NCBI GenBank assembly: GCA_016202525.1
Contig: JACQOM010000170.1
Coordinates: 1-7,937, forward strand
Direction: 5' to 3'
Length of the DNA: 7,937 nt
DNA from: Chloroflexota bacterium
GTDB taxonomy: Bacteria; Chloroflexota; Dehalococcoidia; Dehalococcoidales; UBA2162
The stretch's first letter is position 1, and each line of letters opens with the position of its first letter. The notes below the pieces were generated by a model. The model had not been told where the DNA came from and searched no databases. It was given only the letters and a program-made list of their open reading frames with translations. This document shows, piece after piece, positions 154-7,937 of the stretch. The position numbers were made by a program, and so were the translations under genes.

Positions 154-247
154 AGAGGTGATAGTCGAAGAAAAAGGCCGATTAATAAATTCCGTTCGGT
201 TTAAGTAAATACTATAGGGAAAGAAGACAATTTAAGTGGAGGACAAT

Positions 248-254
248 AGGAGGA
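248..254 (+). promoter_or_regulatory. ribosome binding site that fixes the start at 263
   Basis: AGGAGGA lies 8 nt upstream of the ATG at 263. The reading frame is open from a GTG at 236, but this Shine-Dalgarno sequence would then fall inside the coding region. Starting at 263 also places a normal Lys/Arg-containing signal-peptide n-region directly at the N terminus. The ATG is therefore preferred. Confidence 0.85.
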
Positions 255-262
255 ACAATAGC

Positions 263-2092
263 ATGGTAAGAAAAATCATCTGGCTGGTGATAAGCTGCTC
301 AGTCGTTCTATCACTGGTGCTGGCAGCCTGTGCGCCGTCAACCCCGACAACACCCACGGCACCGACAACGCCTACAAAACCAACAACGCCCACGACACCA
401 ACAACACCAACAACACCGACAACGCCAACAAAACCCACAGCGGAAAAACCAAAGTATGGTGGAGTACTTACGCTCCTTGCCAGCGTTCCGGTGCAAGGCT
501 ATGCCCCGGTCCTATTCCACTCCTCGACCGCGGCCTACCTGAACCATCTGACTATGGAATCACTATGGACTGGAGACTATGCCAAGGGACCAGCCGGCAC
601 GAACGAAGCCAGCTTCCTGGTCTTTACCTGGGGCTTCAAATTTGGCCGTCTGATGCTGGCTGATAGCTACGAAATACCCGGGGGTGATATCCTTATCTTT
701 CACATCCGCAAAGGAATTCACTTCGCCCTTAACCCGAACAGCGAGGCCAGCCGTCTGGTAGCTGGCAGAGAAGTGACCGCCAATGATATAGCCCGCACCC
801 TTAACGACTGGTATTTTGACAAGGAAGGTCACTGGCAGGTCAGAGTCACTAACGAAGAGCGCCCTCTGTCCATAGAAGCGACCGATAAATACACGGTTAA
901 AATCCACTACAAGCCAGGAACCCTGAGCGCAACAATGTATTACGCTTCTACTTTCAGCACTGTATACCCGCCTGAAGTATATGACAAATACAACAAAATG
1001 CGCAGCTGGAAGGATAATGTCGGCACCGGCCCCTTTATGTTGAGCGATGTCGTTGAGGGAAGCTCATATACCCTCGTCAAGAACCCCGGCTACTGGTTCA
1101 AGAACAACCTTTCCGGACAGCAAGGAGACCAGCTACCTTATGTAGATAGCACCAAGTTCCTGGTTATCACTGACCGGTCGACACAGCAGGCAGCACTGCG
1201 TACGGGCAAAATTGACTTAGCCATGGGACAGGGCACCGGAGCGCTCTCCTGGGAAGATGCGGGGACGATGTTGAAGTCCCGCCCTGATATGAAGTATGTC
1301 AGATTCCCCGGTGATGCCATCAGTGTAGGCCTGAGAGTAGACAAGCCGGAGCTACCCTGGTATAACAAGAAGGTCCGCCAGGCACTGAACATGGCCGTGG
1401 ACTACAACACCATCATCAAGGACTATTTTAAGGGCAATGGCGTAATGGTCTACCCGATATTCCCCGATACCCAGTTTATGCCAATGGTCACCCCGCTGGC
1501 AGAACAGAACGAGGTAGTCCGTGATATGTATACTTACCAGCCTGACAAAGCCAAGAAGATGCTGGCTGATGCCGGCTATCCCAACGGCTTTACCCTGGAA
1601 GTGATTGCTCAGGCTTCAGAGGTTGACACTTTATCGATACTGAAAGACTATCTGGCTAAAGTGGGCGTTGACCTGAAAATTGACATCAAAGAACGGGCTG
1701 TCTATCTCTCAGTAACTAATGGAGCCCAGCACAAACATGCCGCCACCAAAAATCTAGCCGATACCACGCCTTATGCCTTCCACCCCACCAATCCAACGGA
1801 TACGGCAAATATTTCCCGTATTAACGACCCCTACGCTAATAAGGTATATGATGACACGCGGGAGGACTACATTCTTAACGAATCCAAGCTCTGGCCGATG
1901 ATAAAAGACTACTACAAGTATGTCATAGAGCAGGCATGGGTCATTGATTTCCCGGCCCCCTATGTCTACAACATGTGGCAGCCGTGGATAAAGAACTACC
2001 ACGGTGAAGTTGACATCGGGCCTTCGATGAAATTCCGCGCCGCTGAGTATATCTGGATTGACCAAGCGCTCAAGAAATCGCTGGGGTATTAA
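263..2092 (+). CDS. ABC-transporter solute-binding lipoprotein, peptide/nickel (SBP family 5) type
   Basis: This is an extracytoplasmic solute-binding protein of the OppA/DppA/NikA class (609 aa), which captures a ligand for an ABC importer. Residues 1-23 are a lipoprotein signal peptide with lipobox L-A-A-C (Cys23 would be lipidated). A Thr-Pro-Thr linker follows (about 24-63), and the fold begins at YGGVLTL. Family hallmarks include the F.IRKGIHF segment after a D-x-Y-E motif, GTGPFML, NPGYWF, a QLPYVD..KFLVITD stretch, AALRTGKIDLA, and VRQALNMAVDYNTII. The length is slightly above the usual 500-600 aa because of the linker. No permease or ATPase gene lies nearby, so the ligand cannot be named; peptides, sugars, nickel chelates and other organics are all possible for the family. 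It has its own promoter and terminator, so it is probably monocistronic. Confidence 0.9.
   Translation: MVRKIIWLVISCSVVLSLVLAACAPSTPTTPTAPTTPTKPTTPTTPTTPTTPTTPTKPTAEKPKYGGVLTLLASVPVQGYAPVLFHSSTAAYLNHLTMESLWTGDYAKGPAGTNEASFLVFTWGFKFGRLMLADSYEIPGGDILIFHIRKGIHFALNPNSEASRLVAGREVTANDIARTLNDWYFDKEGHWQVRVTNEERPLSIEATDKYTVKIHYKPGTLSATMYYASTFSTVYPPEVYDKYNKMRSWKDNVGTGPFMLSDVVEGSSYTLVKNPGYWFKNNLSGQQGDQLPYVDSTKFLVITDRSTQQAALRTGKIDLAMGQGTGALSWEDAGTMLKSRPDMKYVRFPGDAISVGLRVDKPELPWYNKKVRQALNMAVDYNTIIKDYFKGNGVMVYPIFPDTQFMPMVTPLAEQNEVVRDMYTYQPDKAKKMLADAGYPNGFTLEVIAQASEVDTLSILKDYLAKVGVDLKIDIKERAVYLSVTNGAQHKHAATKNLADTTPYAFHPTNPTDTANISRINDPYANKVYDDTREDYILNESKLWPMIKDYYKYVIEQAWVIDFPAPYVYNMWQPWIKNYHGEVDIGPSMKFRAAEYIWIDQALKKSLGY
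341..439 (+). repeat. Thr-Thr-Pro coding repeat (lipoprotein linker)
   Basis: Short 9-nt units encoding Thr-Thr-Pro (forms of ACA-ACN-CCN) are repeated through codons 27-59, with occasional Lys or Ala replacing a Thr. The core has five consecutive TTP units. It encodes the flexible tether between the lipidated cysteine and the binding domain. The near-identical 9-mers make the tract prone to length change by slippage. The reverse strand reads as a Gly-Val repeat, which is an artefact of this tract. Confidence 0.85.
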
Positions 2093-2124: not shown

Positions 2125-2156
2125 GGGCGGGAAGATGCAATCTTCCCGCCCTTTCT
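2125..2156 (+). terminator. rho-independent terminator of the binding-protein gene
   Basis: A perfect 12-bp inverted repeat pairs GGGCGGGAAGAT (2125-2136) with ATCTTCCCGCCC (2140-2151) around a GCA loop, followed by TTTCT. It begins 33 nt after the stop codon. The stem is strong and the U-tract is short and interrupted. Because of its symmetry it could also act weakly on the opposite strand, but no minus-strand gene is present. Confidence 0.85.
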
Positions 2157-2180: not shown

Positions 2181-2209
2181 TTGACAGGGTTCGGGGATAA
2201 GACTATAAT
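2181..2209 (+). promoter_or_regulatory. consensus sigma70 promoter P1 of the oxidoreductase operon
   Basis: TTGACA (2181-2186) and TATAAT (2204-2209) are separated by exactly 17 nt, a perfect match to the bacterial housekeeping consensus at both boxes and spacer. It is the upstream member of a tandem pair and lies about 110 bp before the oxidoreductase start. A perfect consensus implies a strong promoter, or one that is held down by a repressor or an RNA-level control. Confidence 0.8.
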
Positions 2210-2214
2210 TCCGT

Positions 2215-2244
2215 TTGACAGGAGTTTCGGCAAGACGCCATAAT
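2215..2244 (+). promoter_or_regulatory. second tandem sigma70-like promoter P2
   Basis: TTGACA (2215-2220) and CATAAT (2239-2244) are separated by 18 nt. It starts 34 bp downstream of P1 and resembles it beyond the boxes: both read GTTTGACAGG, then a TTCGG, then an AAGAC before the -10 box. It therefore looks like a diverged tandem duplication of P1. Its start site would fall near 2251, about 70 nt before the oxidoreductase ATG. Confidence 0.6.
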
Positions 2245-2319: not shown

Positions 2320-4203
2320 ATGTGGTATGGATGGACTGGTACCGAGCTAGAGATTGACCTGTCACGGGCAAATATCAAGAAGAACCAGGGCAATCAGGCG
2401 ATGTACCACAACTACCTGGGCGGGCGAGGCCTGATTACCAGACTATTCTGGGACAGAGTCCCGCCGGAAACAGAGCCTTTTTCCGCAGACAACCTGCTAA
2501 TATTCGGTGCCGGCACCCTCGTCGGCACGGCAGCACCAGGAGCCAACCGGACCAGCATGGTCACCAAGTCTCCCCTGACCGGCTACCTCACTTACTCCAA
2601 TATGGGGGGCTTCTGGGGTCCTGAGTTAAAGTTCGCTGGCTATGACACAGTGAGCATTTTCGGTAAATCCCCCTCGCCTGTCTATATTTTCATCAATAAT
2701 GACAAGGTGGAGATTCGTGACGCCAAGCATCTCTGGGGCAAAAGCGTTGTTGAAACCCAGCGCATGATTCGGGATGAACTAAAGAACGAATGTGTCCAGG
2801 TCATGTGTATCGGCCCGGGCGGGGAAAACAAGGTACTTTTCGCCAGTATAGAGCACAGCTACGGCTTCAGCTTCAGCCGCACCGGCACCGGCGCCGTTAT
2901 GGGAGATAAAAACCTCAAAGCCATCGCCGTTTATGGCACCAAAGATGTCAATATCGCCAGACCGGAGCCATTCTATGAATTATGTCAGGAGATTCTCAAC
3001 CGGTCAGGCAAGATAGTCAACTATATCGATACCGTGCAGCATGATGACAGCCACAGTCGGCGCCAGCAGGGCACCTATTACCGCAATAGCGACCTGTTGA
3101 GAAAATGGCCGGAAGCAGGACGTGCTCACATGGACTTTCTGTCCCGGCGGGGAGCGGTGAAGATAGGCTGCTACAACTGTTCGCAAAAGTGCTTCCGCTC
3201 AGTCCAATTTTCTAATGGAGAGCCAGTTTATCTCAAGTGCCGCTCACCTTTCTACTTTATAAATATGGCCGACTACCAGAATTACGACTTTAACCTTCAG
3301 TGCAATTATTTGACACAGCGCTACGGCCTCGATGCCCTTTCACCAGGAAACGTCTGCGCCTTTGCCATCGACCTGTACCAGAAAGGCATCTTGACCAAAG
3401 AAGATACGGACGGCTTGCACCTGGAATGGGGCAAACCTGAAATCATATTCAGCTTGCTGGAGAAGATAGGACGCAGGGAAGGAATCGGTGATGTCCTGGC
3501 CAATGGGGTCTTCCGTGCATCTCAGCAGATTGGCCGCGGGGCTGAGCAATTCGCCAACCATGTCAGAAAGCTGGAAACCCGGGGCATGACGATGCATCAA
3601 GTTTCTCAGGCGAAAGCCTATATTCTGAGCGACCGCCAGGATAACACGAGGTATGGCGGGGGCGGACCCGATGAAGCTGAGCAGCCACGTAGAGCAGAAT
3701 ATGACGACTATACCGAAGCCGTCAACCGGACATATCCACCGGACTGGGAAAAATATCTGGACCTGCCTCATTGTAATTATACCCTGGCTGACTGCCTCGG
3801 CTTCTGCATTTTCTGGATAGGATTCAAACCCTTCACTCCGATACGGAGGTTGGATGAGGTAGAGCTAGTAGAGTACGCTACCGGACAAGACCTGAACCGC
3901 ACTGAAGTAGAGAAGGCCACCCGCCGGGCAAGAGCTCTCATCAGGTCCTACAATGCTATCCTGGGAGAGAGAATGCGAGCGGACGACCTCCCAGCCAAGT
4001 TTTTTAAGGGCGTGGGGACAATCCCGCCAATGAGTCATGACGGCCTCAGCAAGGCAATAGAAAGGGCTAACACCATGATGGGATATAATGTTGAAGGCGT
4101 TCCGACAAGAGAAGCCCTGGAAGAAATCGGGCTTGACGATATAGCCCAGGAACTAGAAAGAAGGGGAATTCTACCTAAACCAGCCCTTATGCCGGTTACG
4201 TAA
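2320..4203 (+). CDS. aldehyde:ferredoxin oxidoreductase family protein (tungsten bis-pyranopterin, 4Fe-4S)
   Basis: This is a cytoplasmic tungsten-dependent oxidoreductase of the AOR family (627 aa, against about 600-620 typical). The family oxidises aldehydes to acids with ferredoxin, or runs related two-electron reactions. The N-terminal cofactor domain (about 1-210) shows GGRGL (34-38), GANRTSMVTKSPLTG (74-88), NMGGFWGPELKFAGYD (94-109), and RTGTGAVMGDKNLKAI (187-202). The cluster ligands are intact: C284, C287, C291 in CxxCxxxC, and C496 in DCLGFC (491-496), which is also the D-x-x-G pterin motif. DALSPG at 338-343 fits the other pterin motif. The segment at about 415-460 differs from the usual family sequence, so the substrate is uncertain. 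GGAGG lies 6 nt before the ATG. Promoters P1 and P2 drive it, and the next gene starts 25 bp after its stop. Benzoyl-CoA-reductase-type BamB or another AOR subgroup cannot be excluded. Confidence 0.9.
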   Translation: MWYGWTGTELEIDLSRANIKKNQGNQAMYHNYLGGRGLITRLFWDRVPPETEPFSADNLLIFGAGTLVGTAAPGANRTSMVTKSPLTGYLTYSNMGGFWGPELKFAGYDTVSIFGKSPSPVYIFINNDKVEIRDAKHLWGKSVVETQRMIRDELKNECVQVMCIGPGGENKVLFASIEHSYGFSFSRTGTGAVMGDKNLKAIAVYGTKDVNIARPEPFYELCQEILNRSGKIVNYIDTVQHDDSHSRRQQGTYYRNSDLLRKWPEAGRAHMDFLSRRGAVKIGCYNCSQKCFRSVQFSNGEPVYLKCRSPFYFINMADYQNYDFNLQCNYLTQRYGLDALSPGNVCAFAIDLYQKGILTKEDTDGLHLEWGKPEIIFSLLEKIGRREGIGDVLANGVFRASQQIGRGAEQFANHVRKLETRGMTMHQVSQAKAYILSDRQDNTRYGGGGPDEAEQPRRAEYDDYTEAVNRTYPPDWEKYLDLPHCNYTLADCLGFCIFWIGFKPFTPIRRLDEVELVEYATGQDLNRTEVEKATRRARALIRSYNAILGERMRADDLPAKFFKGVGTIPPMSHDGLSKAIERANTMMGYNVEGVPTREALEEIGLDDIAQELERRGILPKPALMPVT

Positions 4204-4228: not shown

Positions 4229-4741
4229 ATGGCTCTGTCTAAGAAGGTTTCTTCAGAGTTAATGGCCTGGGAGGTTTACATCGGCTGGACGGCCCTCTGT
4301 GAGGAGTTCAGCAGCCCACAGGACTGGGCCCGACTGGAGAAAGCCAAGTGGCGCAAGGGTGAGCTGGTATTCGACGAGCTGCAGAAAGAGTTGAATATAC
4401 CGCCCGGTGACCCCTTCATCGTGGCCAAAGCAATCGGTGATTGGTTTACCAAAACCGGATACGCCAAAATCAAAATCCACAAGGTCTCCGATACTCAAAT
4501 CATGTATGACATGGGCGACCTGATTATGCTACCCATACTGCGTAGCATACGGAGCCGGGGTTTCAAGGTGCTAGCTCCCGAACCATCGACCACTGTGTTC
4601 TTTGCTGCTTTCAAGAAGCTGTGCAATATGAAGGCGGAAGACATACCGGTGCCGCCAGAACTGCAGGCAAAAACCCCAGAGGGCATGGGACGTGAGATGT
4701 GGCGGCTTTCCCCCATCAAGAAGACGAAAGCTAAATCATAG
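4229..4741 (+). CDS. type A member of a tandem paralogue family, unknown function
   Basis: I do not recognise the family. The 170-aa protein has no signal peptide or membrane segment, so it is probably cytoplasmic. An N-terminal helical part (about 8-60) is followed by IPPGDPFIVAKAIGDW (57-72), TGYAKIKIHKVSD (76-88), DLIMLP (97-102), a GFKV.APEPSTT stretch (111-122), FFAAFKKLCNM (124-134), and a basic tail MWRLSPIKKTKAKS. Its closest relative here is the truncated gene at 7454, with which it shares the WRK motif, IPPGDPF, VAKA, IMLP and LCNMK.EDIP. Against the four type B genes it lacks two of three shared cysteines: Ala66 stands where they have C in VCR, and no Cys stands before the MLP motif. 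It starts 25 bp after the oxidoreductase with AAAGGAGG (4214-4221), so it is probably co-transcribed and its role may be tied to that enzyme. Confidence 0.85.
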   Translation: MALSKKVSSELMAWEVYIGWTALCEEFSSPQDWARLEKAKWRKGELVFDELQKELNIPPGDPFIVAKAIGDWFTKTGYAKIKIHKVSDTQIMYDMGDLIMLPILRSIRSRGFKVLAPEPSTTVFFAAFKKLCNMKAEDIPVPPELQAKTPEGMGREMWRLSPIKKTKAKS

Positions 4742-4820
4742 CAGTTCTGGCAGGGACCAGTCTCGGGTGATATCACTCGGAGTTAGCACCGGGAGGACTT
4801 TGCCTGAGCTAGTTTCTGCT
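4740..4820 (+). promoter_or_regulatory. structured leader 1, before the 4860 gene
   Basis: The outer stem pairs AGCAG (4740-4744) with CTGCT (4816-4820). After a small T-rich internal loop, CTGGC (4747-4751) pairs with GCTAG (4808-4812), and AGG (4752-4754) with CCT (4803-4805). Inside is a hairpin CGGGTG-ATAT-CACTCG (4764-4779). A purine-rich arm around GGGAGGAC (4791-4798) follows. The element touches the stop codon of the upstream gene and lies 25 nt before the AAGGAGG (4846-4852) of the next. It resembles leaders 2-4 in architecture and in its 3' motif TAGTTTCTGCTT. An RNA regulatory element is inferred; no named class was recognised. Confidence 0.55.
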
Positions 4821-4859
4821 TGAGTGACTGGAAAATTTTATTTTTAAGGAGGGGACACT

Positions 4860-5420
4860 ATGCCAGTAGCTAAACAAATAGGTATGGAGTGGCAGCGCCG
4901 GGAAATCCTTTTCGCCTGGATAGCGTGGCAGAAGGAAGTGGGCGATTCGCCAAAAGGAAACGAAACAATGGAAAGAGTTGTCGCCCGCAAGGCGGACCTG
5001 CATCTTGACCATATGTTGCAATCGAAGCCCCTTCCCCCTGGGACAACTGACCCCGTCCTTGTGTGCCGACACGTAGCCGATTACCTGACAGAAAATAACT
5101 ATGCCGAGTTTCAGATTGGCAGGGTCGCCGATGATATAATATACCGCGATTGGAAAAACTGTGTGGAGATGCCTCTTATCCCCTGGGCGCGGGATAAAAT
5201 GGGACTCAAAGTGACGCCGAATCCTTCGGCCAGCACGTTGCAAGCCGCCGTACGGAGATTTTGCAAAATGGATGCGGTGCCAATCCCAGCCTCGGAACTG
5301 CCGGCATCTGTCAAGGCGCTGACCCCGCCGGGATATGTAGGACAGCCGTGGCAAGAAGACAAATGGCAACGGTCATACTACCGCCTTGTCCCTATTAAGA
5401 AGTCCAAGTCTAAAAAGTAG
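4860..5420 (+). CDS. type B1 tandem paralogue, three-cysteine small protein of unknown function
   Basis: This is the first of four type B proteins (186 aa), with no recognised family, signal peptide or membrane segment. Order of features: WQRREILFAWIAWQ helix (11-24), ARKADLHLD (42-50), DPVLVCRHVADYL (64-76), YAEFQIGRVADDIIYRDW (81-98), NCVEMPLIPW (100-109), GLKVTPNPSAS (115-125), RRFCKM (132-137), and a variable C-terminal region ending in YRLVPIKKSKSKK. The cysteines kept in all type B copies are C69, C101 and C135, and could hold a metal, cluster or cofactor (inference). It is the most divergent type B copy: it has STLQAAV where the others have S.FHAAL, and one extra residue near position 61. 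The start follows AAGGAGGGG after an AT-rich run that is nearly repeated before the next gene. Confidence 0.85.
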   Translation: MPVAKQIGMEWQRREILFAWIAWQKEVGDSPKGNETMERVVARKADLHLDHMLQSKPLPPGTTDPVLVCRHVADYLTENNYAEFQIGRVADDIIYRDWKNCVEMPLIPWARDKMGLKVTPNPSASTLQAAVRRFCKMDAVPIPASELPASVKALTPPGYVGQPWQEDKWQRSYYRLVPIKKSKSKK

Positions 5421-5431
5421 ATGTTTTTAGT

Positions 5432-5469
5432 AGAAACTAGGCAGGGTGATGTCACCCGAGCCTATTTCT
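5432..5469 (+). promoter_or_regulatory. structured leader 2, before the 5505 gene (minimal form)
   Basis: AGAAACTAGGC (5432-5442) pairs with GCCTATTTCT (5460-5469) over 10 bp with one bulged C. It encloses the hairpin GGGTG-ATGT-CACCC (5444-5457). This is the shortest of the four leaders: the purine-rich middle arm of leaders 1 and 3 is absent. The stem is followed by GTTTGG and then an AT-rich run and AAGGAGGG (5491-5498). No proper U-tract directly follows the stem, which argues against a plain terminator. Confidence 0.6.
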
Positions 5470-5504
5470 GTTTGGCGACCAAATTTTTTTAAGGAGGGAA
5501 CCCT

Positions 5505-6053
5505 ATGCCTTTAGCGAAACAAATAAGTATGGAGTGGCAGCGCCGGGAGATTCTTACCGCCTGGATAGCCTGGCAGATGGAAGTGGGCACTACGGAGAAG
5601 GGAATCGAGACAATGCGGAGGGTCGTCGACCGCAAGGCAGACCTGCACCTCGACCAGATGATAAAAGATTGGCCCATTGCAGCAAATAGTGACCCGATTA
5701 CCGTATGCCGTGTCGTCGCCGATTACCTGACCGCTAGCGGCTATGCCGAATACCAGATTGGCAAGATATCTGACAAAATCATGTACCGGGATTGGAGAAA
5801 CTGCGTAGAGATGCCCATGATTCCCTGGGCTCTGAGAGAAATGGGACTTAAGGTTACACCCAATCCCTCCACCAGTCTGTTCCATGCCGCCCTCAGGAGA
5901 TTCTGCAAGATAGATGCTAAGATTGTCCGTGGTGCCGATGTGCCCAAAGAGGCACTGGCACAAATACCGAAGGGCTGGACGAAGCCGGGGGAATGGCACG
6001 AGGATGAGTGGGGACGCGAATACTGGATTCTGGCACCCCTGAAGAAAAAATAG
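5505..6053 (+). CDS. type B2 tandem paralogue, three-cysteine small protein of unknown function
   Basis: The 182-aa protein carries the same ordered motifs as its neighbours: WQRREILTAWIAWQ (11-24), DRKADLHLD (42-50), DPITVCRVVADYL (63-75), YAEYQIGKISD (80-90), YRDWRNCVEMPMIPW (94-108), GLKVTPNPSTSLFHAALRR (114-132) and FCKI (133-136). The shared cysteines are C68, C100 and C134. By hand count it is about 78% identical to the 6871 product across residues 62-140, the closest pair noted, even though another copy lies between them. The stretch from about 140 to 172 is variable and rich in Trp and charged residues, and it ends with YWILAPLKKK. The linker at 55-62 (WPIAANSD) departs from the PPG/PSG forms of other members. 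The start is fixed by AAGGAGGG 6 nt upstream of the ATG. Confidence 0.87.
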   Translation: MPLAKQISMEWQRREILTAWIAWQMEVGTTEKGIETMRRVVDRKADLHLDQMIKDWPIAANSDPITVCRVVADYLTASGYAEYQIGKISDKIMYRDWRNCVEMPMIPWALREMGLKVTPNPSTSLFHAALRRFCKIDAKIVRGADVPKEALAQIPKGWTKPGEWHEDEWGREYWILAPLKKK

Positions 6054-6080
6054 AGTTTAACCGCAAAAATCCGGAAAGAG

Positions 6081-6143
6081 ACTGGCTTGGGTTATGTCGC
6101 CTGTGACTTAGAACAGCGAGGACTATCATCCAAGCCAGTTTTT
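6081..6143 (+). promoter_or_regulatory. structured leader 3, before the 6181 gene (terminator-like)
   Basis: ACTGGCTTGG (6081-6090) and CCAAGCCAGT (6130-6139) are perfect complements over 10 bp, and the stem runs into TTTTT (6139-6143). Inside, TCGCCTGT (6097-6104) pairs with ACAGCGA (6113-6119) with one bulged C around an 8-nt loop. The shape, with the trailing U-run, fits an intrinsic terminator or an attenuator between two genes of the array. The internal sequence resembles leader 1: both have GGGT-AT-TC near the start and GAGGACT in the second arm. It lies 22 nt before AAGGAG (6166-6171). Confidence 0.65.
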
Positions 6144-6180
6144 GTTCCAGCGATTAAAATAAGGTAAGGAGATAATAACA

Positions 6181-6753
6181 ATGGCTCTGGCAGAGAAAAT
6201 AAACACTGATTGGCAACGCCGGGAGATAATTTGCGCCTGGCTAGCCATGAATCTGGAACTGGGCAATAGTCCAAAGGCGTTAGACAGGATGCGGAAACTG
6301 GTAGACCGCAAGGCAGACCTCCATCTTGAACACCTGTTGCAGACAAGAAAAATCCCATCGGGCGACCCCGTCACCGTCTGCCGGCATATCGCCGATTATC
6401 TGACGGAAAGCGGCTATGCCAAGTACCAGATTGGCAGAGCTTCCGAGGATATAATATACCGGGACTGGAATGACTGCGTGGAGATGCCTATCCTGCCCTG
6501 GGCTTACCAGAAAGGTCTCAAGGTTACACCCAACCCTTCCACCAGTATCTTTCATGCCGCCCTCAGAAGGCTGTGCAATATGAATACGGAAATCATCCGG
6601 GGAGACCAAGTGCCCAAGGAGGTCCGCGCGCTAACCCCCCCGCGATGGACGCTGAGCTGGACAAAGGGTGAGGGAGGAGTCGAGTGGCAGCCAGACCAGT
6701 GGACCCGGGAATACTGGCGCCTTTCCCCGCTTAAGAAAACCAGAACTAAATAG
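6181..6753 (+). CDS. type B3 tandem paralogue, three-cysteine small protein of unknown function
   Basis: At 190 aa this is the longest array member. Motifs: WQRREIICAWLA (11-22), DRKADLHLE (42-50), PSGDPVTVCRHIADYL (59-74), YAKYQIGRASEDIIYRDW (79-96), DCVEMPILPW (98-107), GLKVTPNPSTSIFHAALRRLCNM (112-134). Shared cysteines are C67, C99 and C132; C18 is also found in the 6871 product. It is one residue shorter before GLKV than the others. The variable region (about 140-175) carries an insertion around WTLSWTKGEGGVEWQPDQW, and the tail is YWRLSPLKKTRTK. LCNM and RLSP match the type A proteins better than B1 or B2 do. The start has AAGGAG 9 nt upstream. Expression may depend on read-through of leader 3. 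Confidence 0.87.
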   Translation: MALAEKINTDWQRREIICAWLAMNLELGNSPKALDRMRKLVDRKADLHLEHLLQTRKIPSGDPVTVCRHIADYLTESGYAKYQIGRASEDIIYRDWNDCVEMPILPWAYQKGLKVTPNPSTSIFHAALRRLCNMNTEIIRGDQVPKEVRALTPPRWTLSWTKGEGGVEWQPDQWTREYWRLSPLKKTRTK

Positions 6754-6766
6754 CAGAAGCTACGCG

Positions 6767-6835
6767 CAGAAACCATACCCGTGTCAATCACTCGGGAATC
6801 AGTTCACGGGTGATTTTTATCACGGCCGGTTTTTG
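6767..6835 (+). promoter_or_regulatory. structured leader 4, before the 6871 gene, with competing folds
   Basis: The outer stem pairs CAGAAACC (6767-6774) with GGTTTTTG (6828-6835) over 8 bp with one G-U. Within it three helices compete for the same bases. ACCCGTG (6777-6783) pairs with CACGGGT (6805-6811). AATCACTCG (6786-6794) pairs with CGGGTGATT (6807-6815). GTGAT (6810-6814) pairs with ATCAC (6819-6823) around TTTT. GATTTTT follows the first helix like a terminator U-tract. The ribosome site GAGGAGGT (6857-6864) lies 21 nt further on. Overlapping alternative helices are typical of switching RNAs, but no ligand class was recognised. Confidence 0.55.
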
Positions 6836-6870
6836 TTACAATGAGTAAGATTCTTTGAGGAGGTAACACG

Positions 6871-7416
6871 ATGCCCTTAGCTACTAAAATAGACGCCGAC
6901 TGGCAGCGCCGGGAAATACTTTGCGCCTGGATAGCCTGGCAGATGGAGATAGGCGATTCGCCAAAGGCGGTCGAGACAATGCGGAGAGTGGTCAACCGCA
7001 AGGCAGACCTGCATCTTAACGAGCTACTAAAGACAAGGGGAATTACGTCGAGCGACCCTGTTACCGTTTGCCGGTATATCGCTGACTACCTGACCGAAAG
7101 CGGCTATGCCGAATACCAGATTGGCAAGGTATCCGATACTATATTGTACCGGGACTGGAAAAACTGTGTAGAAATGCCCCTTATCCCGTGGGCAATGAAA
7201 GAAATGGGGCTTAAGGTTACGCCCAATCCCTCCACCAGCCTCTTCCATGCCGCTCTGCGGAAGCTATGTAACATGAAGGCGGAAATCATCTGGGGGAACG
7301 ATATACCGAAAGCTGCTATGGACCTCACTCCGGAAGAATTCAAAGAGGACTGGAGAAAAGAATGGGCGGAGGACAGGTGGGGCCGGGAATTCTGGCGCCT
7401 TTCCCCACTTAAATAG
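6871..7416 (+). CDS. type B4 tandem paralogue, three-cysteine small protein of unknown function
   Basis: The 181-aa protein looks close to a consensus of the type B set. Motifs: WQRREILCAWIAWQ (11-24), NRKADLHLN (42-50), DPVTVCRYIADYL (62-74), GYAEYQIGKVSDTILYRDW (78-96), NCVEMPLIPW (98-107), GLKVTPNPSTSLFHAALRK (113-131), LCNMKAEI (132-139). Conserved cysteines are C67, C99 and C133, plus C18. The variable region is charged and rich in Trp and Glu (about 150-172), and the tail FWRLSPLK lacks the terminal Lys-rich extension of its relatives. Alternating short strands and amphipathic helices suggest an alpha/beta ligand-binding fold (inference). The start follows GAGGAGGT by 6 nt. It runs on to the next gene with a gap of only 37 bp and no structured leader, so those two are probably co-transcribed. 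Confidence 0.87.
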   Translation: MPLATKIDADWQRREILCAWIAWQMEIGDSPKAVETMRRVVNRKADLHLNELLKTRGITSSDPVTVCRYIADYLTESGYAEYQIGKVSDTILYRDWKNCVEMPLIPWAMKEMGLKVTPNPSTSLFHAALRKLCNMKAEIIWGNDIPKAAMDLTPEEFKEDWRKEWAEDRWGREFWRLSPLK

Positions 7417-7418
7417 AC

Positions 7419-7437
7419 TTGAGATTCTAAATCTTAA
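7419..7437 (+). other. small AT-rich hairpin between the last two array genes
   Basis: TTGAGATT (7419-7426) pairs with AATCTTAA (7430-7437) over 8 bp with one G-U around a CTA loop, directly before GAGGAGG (7439-7445). It has no U-tract and is mostly A-T pairs, so termination is unlikely. It might partly mask the ribosome site. It shares nothing with the four type B leaders. Confidence 0.3.
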
Positions 7438-7453
7438 TGAGGAGGCGATAACT

Positions 7454-7937
7454 ATGGCAAAAAAAATCGATGCTGAATTCTTTAACGCCGAGGTCGGTCT
7501 AGCCTGGCTCGCTTTATATCAGGAGTTCGGCAATGACCCAAAGGAACTGGCCAGACTGGACAAATGCAAGTGGCGCAAAAGCGAGATGGTATTTGACTGG
7601 CTTCAAAAAGAAATGAAAATCCCACCTGGCGACCCTTTTACCGTAGCCAAAGCGGTAGGGAAATACCTGACCAAAATCGGCTATGCCGATGTCAAGGTCT
7701 TCAAGCTTGCCGATGACATAATCAGGTATAATGGCGTTGATATGATTATGCTCCCCATGGCGCGTTACCTGAACACCCAGGGGCTCAAGGTATTTCCACA
7801 ACCCTCTAACTCGATATTCATTACCGCCTTTCAGAAGCTGTGCAACATGAAGGTAGAGGACATTCCGCTGCCCCCGGAGGAACGGGCAAAACTCCCAGCC
7901 AACGTATACCAGCGGACGTGGCGTCTTTCTCCCATCA
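7454..7937 (+). CDS. type A tandem paralogue, unknown function (3' end cut by window)
   Basis: The frame is open from the ATG at 7454 to the window edge: 161 codons and one extra base, with no stop. About 10-20 residues are probably missing, judged from the 4229 product. Its order matches that protein: KWRKSEMVFDWLQKE (39-53), IPPGDPFTVAKAVG (56-69), IGYADVKVFKLADDII (75-90), VDMIMLP (95-101), GLKVFPQPSNSIF (110-122), FQKLCNMKVEDIPLPP (126-141), and WRLSPI at the cut end. It keeps the LCNM cysteine (C130) but, like the other type A protein, has VAK in place of VCR and no Cys before the MLP motif. C38 in CKWRK is its own. GAGGAGG lies 8 nt upstream. The array may continue beyond the window. 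Confidence 0.85.
   Translation, partial: MAKKIDAEFFNAEVGLAWLALYQEFGNDPKELARLDKCKWRKSEMVFDWLQKEMKIPPGDPFTVAKAVGKYLTKIGYADVKVFKLADDIIRYNGVDMIMLPMARYLNTQGLKVFPQPSNSIFITAFQKLCNMKVEDIPLPPEERAKLPANVYQRTWRLSPI

Follow-up and report, generated by a model that had tools for sequence, protein, structure and literature searches.

A tandem array of six small genes, with a predicted V4R/TRAPP-like fold, behind a BamB/YdhV-type enzyme gene in a Chloroflexota bacterium

The window analysed here is a stretch of 7,937 nucleotides of Chloroflexota DNA (contig JACQOM010000170.1 of assembly GCA_016202525.1). It carries an array of six related small open reading frames (ORFs) on the + strand (4229-7936), the sixth of which reaches the end of the window without a stop codon. 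Two types of gene, A and B, are found in the order A-B-B-B-B-A. Type A comprises gene 1 (4229..4741, 170 aa), the product of which is predicted to have a V4R/TRAPP-like fold, and gene 6 (7454..7936), which encodes 161 aa before it is cut by the window end; its counterpart at a second locus, L001, is complete and encodes 162 aa. Type B comprises genes 2 (4860..5420, 186 aa), 3 (5505..6053, 182 aa) and 4 (6181..6753, 190 aa), assigned from the ORF list, alignment and tree, and gene 5 (6871..7416, 181 aa), for which the gene 1 fold is predicted with an additional loop of ~30 residues before the last strand. The array lies behind a + strand gene (2320..4203) for a 627-aa pyranopterin enzyme of the AFOR/WOR family.

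An alignment of the six proteins spans their full length and has 25 invariant columns; the products of genes 2-6 are 33-54% identical to that of gene 1. The original prediction listed a set of shared motifs. Shared motifs do exist, and several of them are looser than described: NYA replaces GYA in gene 2, CKI replaces C-x-M in gene 3, MP is confined to type B (type A has LP), gene 1 reads GFKVLAPEPS at the GLKV.P.PS site, and the C-terminal tail varies (YRLVPIKK in gene 2, WILAPLKK in gene 3). A family tree was built from 35 of the 36 members found, one 98-aa fragment being dropped. Genes 2-5 form one clade in this tree (support 100/100); genes 1 and 6 fall outside it, on two separate supported branches.

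L001 (contig JACPSA010000063.1) belongs to a Chloroflexi groundwater metagenome-assembled genome (MAG), G001. It contains two solute-binding protein genes, an enzyme gene 83% identical to that of the window, six array genes in the same order, and, cut by the contig edge, the beginning of a further AFOR gene. Because the six-gene order is kept in L001, the window array is neither a chance arrangement nor an assembly accident. In the tree, window genes 1, 3, 5 and 6 are each sister to the L001 gene at the same position, and genes 2 and 4 adjoin theirs. The A-B-B-B-B-A array originally predicted is thus borne out by the ORFs, the alignment, the 35-member tree and the L001 counterpart.

Every array copy is under purifying selection. 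The ratio of non-synonymous to synonymous substitution rates (dN/dS) between the window and L001 is 0.049-0.172 for the six array genes and 0.127 for the enzyme gene. For genes 1, 2, 3 and 6, counterparts can also be recognised in another genome, G009, with dN/dS values of 0.055-0.128. The alternative that the copies are decaying is ruled out by the values against L001, and the earlier description of diverged but intact copies holds for both sets of counterparts. Plain dosage, in which the copies share one job, would suit a tandem array with the two best promoter-like sites before the enzyme gene; against it, the four copy pairs measured are only 54-68% identical, and the G009 array on contig C44 still has a distinct counterpart of each of genes 1, 3 and 6. 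We regard dosage as the least probable of the explanations considered. The idea of different ligands, put forward with the original prediction, fits these results as a proposal.

The small-protein family is rare. Family members were found in four of 200 sampled relatives of G001, two of 156 genomes of the order and two of 400 of the phylum, G001 being counted. A profile of the six proteins searched against 5.8 billion proteins returned 29 clusters, including the window's own; where a source is named, they are hypothetical proteins from Chloroflexi or Dehalococcoidales MAGs. G001 has 14 family matches, of which one is only partial and lies in a divergent gene and another falls on a fragment, and G009 has ten. 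Four divergent members occur in each of two more distant genomes, G173 and G192; the G192 member on C43 is not in the ORF set used for motif counts. Some of these distant members lie beside genes resembling, by eye, old yellow enzyme, FAD-dependent and CoA-metabolism genes (L042, 8032-9043; L043, 173-661 and 6380-7412; L040, 9746-10207). A divergent member in G001 (L034, 8979-9464) is found a few kb from genes that look phage-like by eye. A defence-system function was considered and rejected, as PADLOC gave no defence match at E 0.01 among 28 family members, including five of the six window genes.

The upstream enzyme matches AFOR_N (E 3.3e-75) and AFOR_C (E 1.7e-56) and has a C-x2-C-x3-C motif at position 284. 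Its best PDB match is BamB (4z3w, 380.7 bits, compared with 262.9 for 1aor), and it matches the NCBIfam model PRK09849, which we take to be YdhV, at 1.6e-68, far below the model cut-off. Cys307 of the enzyme aligns with BamB Cys322, and this column is Cys in all seven array-associated clade enzymes (see below) that show it. In the available part of one review, the tungsten-ligating Cys is described as conserved in BamB and YdhV only, and strict aldehyde oxidoreductases (AOR) as having a second-shell Glu313 (PMC12096430); the window enzyme has Arg308 at the latter position, with an alignment posterior of only ~0.5. The "AOR" label originally given to this neighbour therefore has to be revised: judged by the BamB match and the Cys column, it is of BamB/YdhV type, not a strict aldehyde oxidoreductase. 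The likeness to BamB, a class II benzoyl-CoA reductase, has limits. BamB Glu251, His255, Glu257 and His260 align, with low confidence, to H, H, R and a gap, and the spacing E-x3-H-x-E-x2-H of the BamB zinc/proton relay is found in none of 45 enzyme ORFs. Since this motif is absent, benzoyl-CoA reduction is not implied. No further Bam subunits were recognised by eye in the fetched neighbourhoods.

The association between enzyme and array was examined in a set comprising the window enzyme and 41 of the 43 AFOR_N matches in the four genomes (G001 17, G009 21, G173 4, G192 1); the two left out are among the four of G173. A quick enzyme tree has 43 rows from 45 ORFs, two pieces shorter than 300 aa having been dropped. 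All seven enzymes followed by an array fall in one nine-member clade with a support of 100 in the Shimodaira-Hasegawa-like approximate likelihood ratio test (SH-aLRT). The contigs of the remaining two members stop at the enzyme gene itself, so that 0 bp can be seen downstream. In all seven testable clade members the array gene begins 19-45 bp behind the enzyme gene. Outside the clade, a same-strand family gene follows none of 34 enzymes within the next 3 kb, or as far as a shorter stretch extends, and 32 of the 34 show at least 500 bp. When the two contig-edge enzymes are counted as lacking an array, the enzyme tree needs three changes, compared with a mean of 6.6 after shuffling. Recurrence of arrays next to AOR genes in relatives had been named beforehand as a check; arrays do recur, beside AFOR-family genes.

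A position directly behind the enzyme gene, in one enzyme clade only, would also be expected of maturation factors that aid insertion of the tungsten/molybdenum cofactor. The other AFOR-family enzymes of these genomes manage without adjacent family genes, and one such factor would suffice where six are found. Maturation is accordingly considered quite improbable.

Sequence searches do not place the array proteins in a family. No Pfam or NCBIfam family is significant for the six. PF02830 (V4R) gives no match at E 1 for the six window proteins or 28 family members, and none at E 0.1 in G001, G009, G173 and G192; PF14196 (ATC_hydrolase) gives no match for the window proteins or the 28 members. 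The family profile finds only chance matches among PDB sequences (best E 0.37). The fold, in contrast, is recognisable. Two array proteins were modelled with predicted local distance difference test (pLDDT) scores of 92.3 and 94.1, and the top structural match of both is Bet3/TRAPPC3, at 13% and 8% identity to the best rows. Next come BcsD, the XylR-type phenol sensors MopR, DmpR and PoxR, H-NOX, and YslB. The predicted topology has three N-terminal helices, two strands, two helices and two further strands, with Bet3-like packing. Comparison of the family profile with a V4R profile (from 20 of 30 loci) by hhalign gave a score of 31.9 (P 3.4e-4, 116 columns), above the maximum of 19.7 in 100 column permutations and the 16.2 of the reversed profile; with a six-sequence V4R subset the score was 21.4, the permutations reached at most 16.6, and the probability was 3%. 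On these models, the array proteins seem to form a branch of the V4R/TRAPP/H-NOX fold group that has so far gone unrecognised. The statement that they belong to no recognised family thus stands for profile searches and not for the fold, which models and Foldseek identify. The reading of an unknown fold was rejected, because confident models match this group.

Members of this fold group with known functions bind hydrophobic or aromatic ligands or haem, or dimerise within complexes. The array proteins resemble V4R proteins (PF02830, COG1719) in their helices and twisted sheet, in standing alone, and, less certainly, in the remote profile similarity that exceeds permutations. They differ from them in lacking a PF02830 match and in being arrayed behind one enzyme clade. 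They also lack the glycine pairs, three residues apart, that are described for V4R helices 2 and 5 in the available text of PMC2253512. In helix 2, column 45 is small in 48/48 rows (G27 A19 S2) and columns 41 and 49 are mostly large; in helix 5, columns 123 (S/A/T) and 127 (A) are mostly small, with glycine in just two rows, at 127. By eye, most of 20 V4R proteins have two Cys around a glycine in the last hairpin; no such C-terminal pair is found here, as no column after 133 has four or more Cys among the 48 rows. H-NOX has a proximal haem histidine, and the array family has no conserved equivalent: its His-richest column is His in 16 of 48 rows. The array proteins are bacterial and no vesicle-tethering partners were seen; the match to TRAPPC3/Bet3 speaks for the fold and not the job.

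Three further explanations were considered. The nearest rival is a structural one, in which A and B subunits form a hetero-oligomeric scaffold that seats the enzyme and carries no ligand. The best matches are TRAPP subunits, which act as homo- or heterodimers according to the available text of PMC2253512; BcsD, which forms larger assemblies, is among the next. The two subtypes and the specificity for one enzyme clade also agree with a scaffold. A copy number of one to six per enzyme is awkward for a fixed complex, and two loci (L033 and the single-copy L038) have no type B gene; none is visible in L037, which ends at a contig edge. We consider a scaffold rather unlikely on present evidence. 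Alternatively, the proteins could sense a ligand and act in trans to switch transport or transcription, as a XylR/DmpR sensor domain freed from its effector might. The XylR_N sensor domain is fused to an AAA+ sigma-54 activator. Sensor domains of DmpR, MopR and PoxR are among the structural matches, and a solute-binding protein gene is in the neighbourhood; those sensors are parts of transcription activators, whereas the array proteins stand alone at 160-190 aa with no second Pfam domain, a regulator domain included. No regulator gene was recognised by eye beside the arrays, where neighbours were not Pfam-scanned, and a sensor function is judged improbable.

The third explanation is that the array proteins are themselves enzymes, for example hydrolases related to ATC_hydrolase that act before or after the oxidoreductase. 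Cys133 is conserved in 44/48 family rows, and Glu26 and Asp89 in 38/40 and 39/40 of the closer rows. In G009 (C116, L177) an ATC_hydrolase gene (7290-7841) is divergent from an AFOR gene (7684-10092), the called ORF ends overlapping. Against this, the ATC_hydrolase profile (from 23 of 33 loci) scores only 17.8, inside the permutation range (maximum 18.3, one of 100 higher), and of the three residues just Cys133 reaches 90% in the wider alignment. A hydrolase is very improbable.

The spacers between the array genes retain traces of how the array may have grown. A nucleotide profile (nhmmer) of the 3' ends of the seven clade enzymes was searched against 18 spacers between family genes and two further stretches, with 100 shuffles of each. 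Enzyme 3'-end relics were detected in eight of the 20 at E <=0.02, each above all of its own shuffles. The clearest in the window is in spacer 3-4 (6054..6180, + strand; 44.2 bits, E 3.5e-12, no shuffle above 0), which also forms a strong hairpin (fold z -3.99). Spacer 1-2 (4742..4859, +) contains a decayed enzyme 3' end (12.6 bits, E 0.017, best shuffle 1.4) followed by a Shine-Dalgarno sequence. The remaining 12 stretches have no significant enzyme 3' end. These include window spacer 2-3 (5421..5504, +), a possible shortened relic that is not significant alone (4.9 bits, E 3.9), and spacers 4-5 (6754..6870, +) and 5-6 (7417..7453, +), where nhmmer found no match. Relics at L001 score 20.6 (1-2), 23.6 (2-3) and 43.8 bits (3-4), and one on C98 scores 41.2 (1-2). 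The G009 C44 array has relics in spacers 1-2 (18.5 bits) and 3-4 (17.7 bits), though it has no enzyme gene upstream. The clearest relics, when translated, still resemble the enzyme C terminus. Because relics are found in several spacers, the repeating unit is probably an enzyme tail plus a small gene, and the array probably grew by copying of this unit, with enzyme bodies lost or never complete.

Two relic spacers may since have been put to use. In the comparison of the window with L001, identity is 0.90 for spacer 1-2 and 0.89 for spacer 3-4, and 0.83, 0.71 and 0.78 (with gaps) for spacers 2-3, 4-5 and 5-6; the difference at synonymous sites of the six genes amounts to 0.32-0.40. Relative to synonymous sites, the former pair is thus unusually conserved; both of its spacers fold into hairpins, and their relics may have acquired a function. 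A conserved riboswitch-like RNA was also considered and rejected. The spacers have no Rfam match, RNAalifold gave no consensus structure, and the sequence they share is the enzyme 3' end; fold z-scores range from -3.99 to +1.31 in 16 stretches.

Taken with the selection on every copy, the linkage suggests that the array genes encode dedicated partners of the enzyme clade. We therefore favour, tentatively and at a little less than an even chance, a reading in which they are stand-alone members of the fold group that bind ligands for one clade of BamB/YdhV-type pyranopterin (tungsten or molybdenum) oxidoreductases, in an array grown by enzyme-tail/small-gene duplication. A unit of enzyme 3' end and small gene would have been duplicated repeatedly; enzyme copies would have been lost or never complete, and the small genes kept, diverging into types A and B. 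The enzyme and the array proteins would be made from one mRNA, in the cytoplasm. The array proteins would dimerise, as homodimers or A-B pairs, and the dimers might bind the substrate or product, a hydrophobic or cyclic compound, which they would pass to the enzyme or guard for it. Paralogues would then widen the range of compounds. The ligand idea draws on the phenol sensors MopR, DmpR and PoxR among the structural matches and on the view, in the available text of PMC2253512, that V4R domains, of which stand-alone forms exist, are thought to bind hydrophobic ligands and to signal in cis or trans. A bolder version, which we think unlikely, is that the enzyme is served by interchangeable V4R/TRAPP-like adaptors and that, in gene duplication, the adaptors are retained and the enzyme is dropped, so that it is adaptors that multiply and not active sites.

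Several observations weigh against ligand-binding partners of a single enzyme clade. The linkage rests on one lineage (the window, G001 and G009), and family genes occur without an AFOR-family ORF in the fetched stretches L032 and L034 (G001) and L040-L044 (G173, G192). The G009 C44 array (L036) lies 3'-to-3' with an opposite-strand enzyme, L036_3, from outside the clade, and L038 has a single copy. The ligating Cys is not specific to the clade, as it is also present in 14 of 15 sister-group ORFs (the fifteenth is cut) and in L190, outside both groups. L035, an enzyme of the clade, has no C-x2-C-x3-C motif, which makes its iron-sulphur cluster doubtful. The fold is common to proteins with unrelated jobs, the hhalign probability to V4R is only 38%, and the type B Foldseek matches are weaker (best E 8.2e-4). 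Finally, spacers 1-2 of the window and L001 are mutual counterparts, as are spacers 3-4, so that at most six of the eight relics are independent. Of the original interpretation as a whole, the intact copies, the absence of a sequence family and the arrays beside AFOR genes remain; a strict AOR does not, and the fold is a known one.

Classifications of known tungsten oxidoreductases use catalytic, polyferredoxin, flavin and bifurcating subunits, and the YdhV group is given no assigned activity or role, in the available text of PMC12096430 and PMC13328260 for the former and PMC13328260 for the latter. The main text of the 2026 WOR classification (PMC13328260), as far as available, does not contain "V4R" or "Chloroflex", and a literature search found no paper joining "4-vinyl reductase" with "aldehyde ferredoxin oxidoreductase". 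Two papers mention V4R together with benzoyl-CoA reductase. If the reading of dedicated partners is true, V4R/TRAPP-fold proteins that travel with one enzyme clade would add a new type of partner to those of tungsten oxidoreductases. The array gives a handle on the BamB/YdhV branch and a specific bacterial context in which to ask about the job of stand-alone V4R-like proteins. Its growth is unusually readable, as several spacers show the enzyme tail copied along. Should the adaptor version be true, the lineage would widen its substrate range by multiplying adaptors.

Within the scanned region, the best two sites resembling a sigma-70-type promoter lie in front of the enzyme gene (2181..2244, +): a TTGACA-17-TATAAT site matching at 12/12 and a second at 11/12. 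Both are present in the aligned L001 spacer. Weaker + strand sites (9/12) occur at 6863 and 7593, and the scan found no + strand terminator-like site in the spacers between array genes. A terminator-like hairpin (2125..2151, +; 12 pairs, 8 G-C) follows the solute-binding lipoprotein gene.

Other features of the window and the related genomes are as follows. The window begins with a tRNA gene (1-72, Rfam), the anticodon of which is CCC (Gly) by eye. In G001, pieces of a further, broken array gene lie behind three intact ones (L031 on C98, 2840-3107). The truncated enzyme gene at the end of L001 (13863-14817) shares 93-98% identity, over 471 and 98 bp, with the enzyme at L033 2425-3967; L033 (G001 C79), with two more array genes, may continue L001 or be a recent copy. 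The SBP_bac_5 lipoprotein (236..2092, +; PF00496 E 1.8e-48) has a long Pro/Thr-rich repeat linker after its lipoprotein signal (330-480). Such genes usually precede the enzyme gene: SBP_bac_5 genes are also found upstream of the enzyme on C30 (L001), C34, C76, C33 and C98 (in two pieces on C98). There are 28 SBP_bac_5 matches in G001 and 23 in G009, fragments included, and 58 in G173. In G001 (L161-L167, L188-L191) and G009 (L169-L177, L181-L187), assemblies of 1.4 and 1.9 Mb, many AFOR_N matches lie beside SBP_bac_5 genes.

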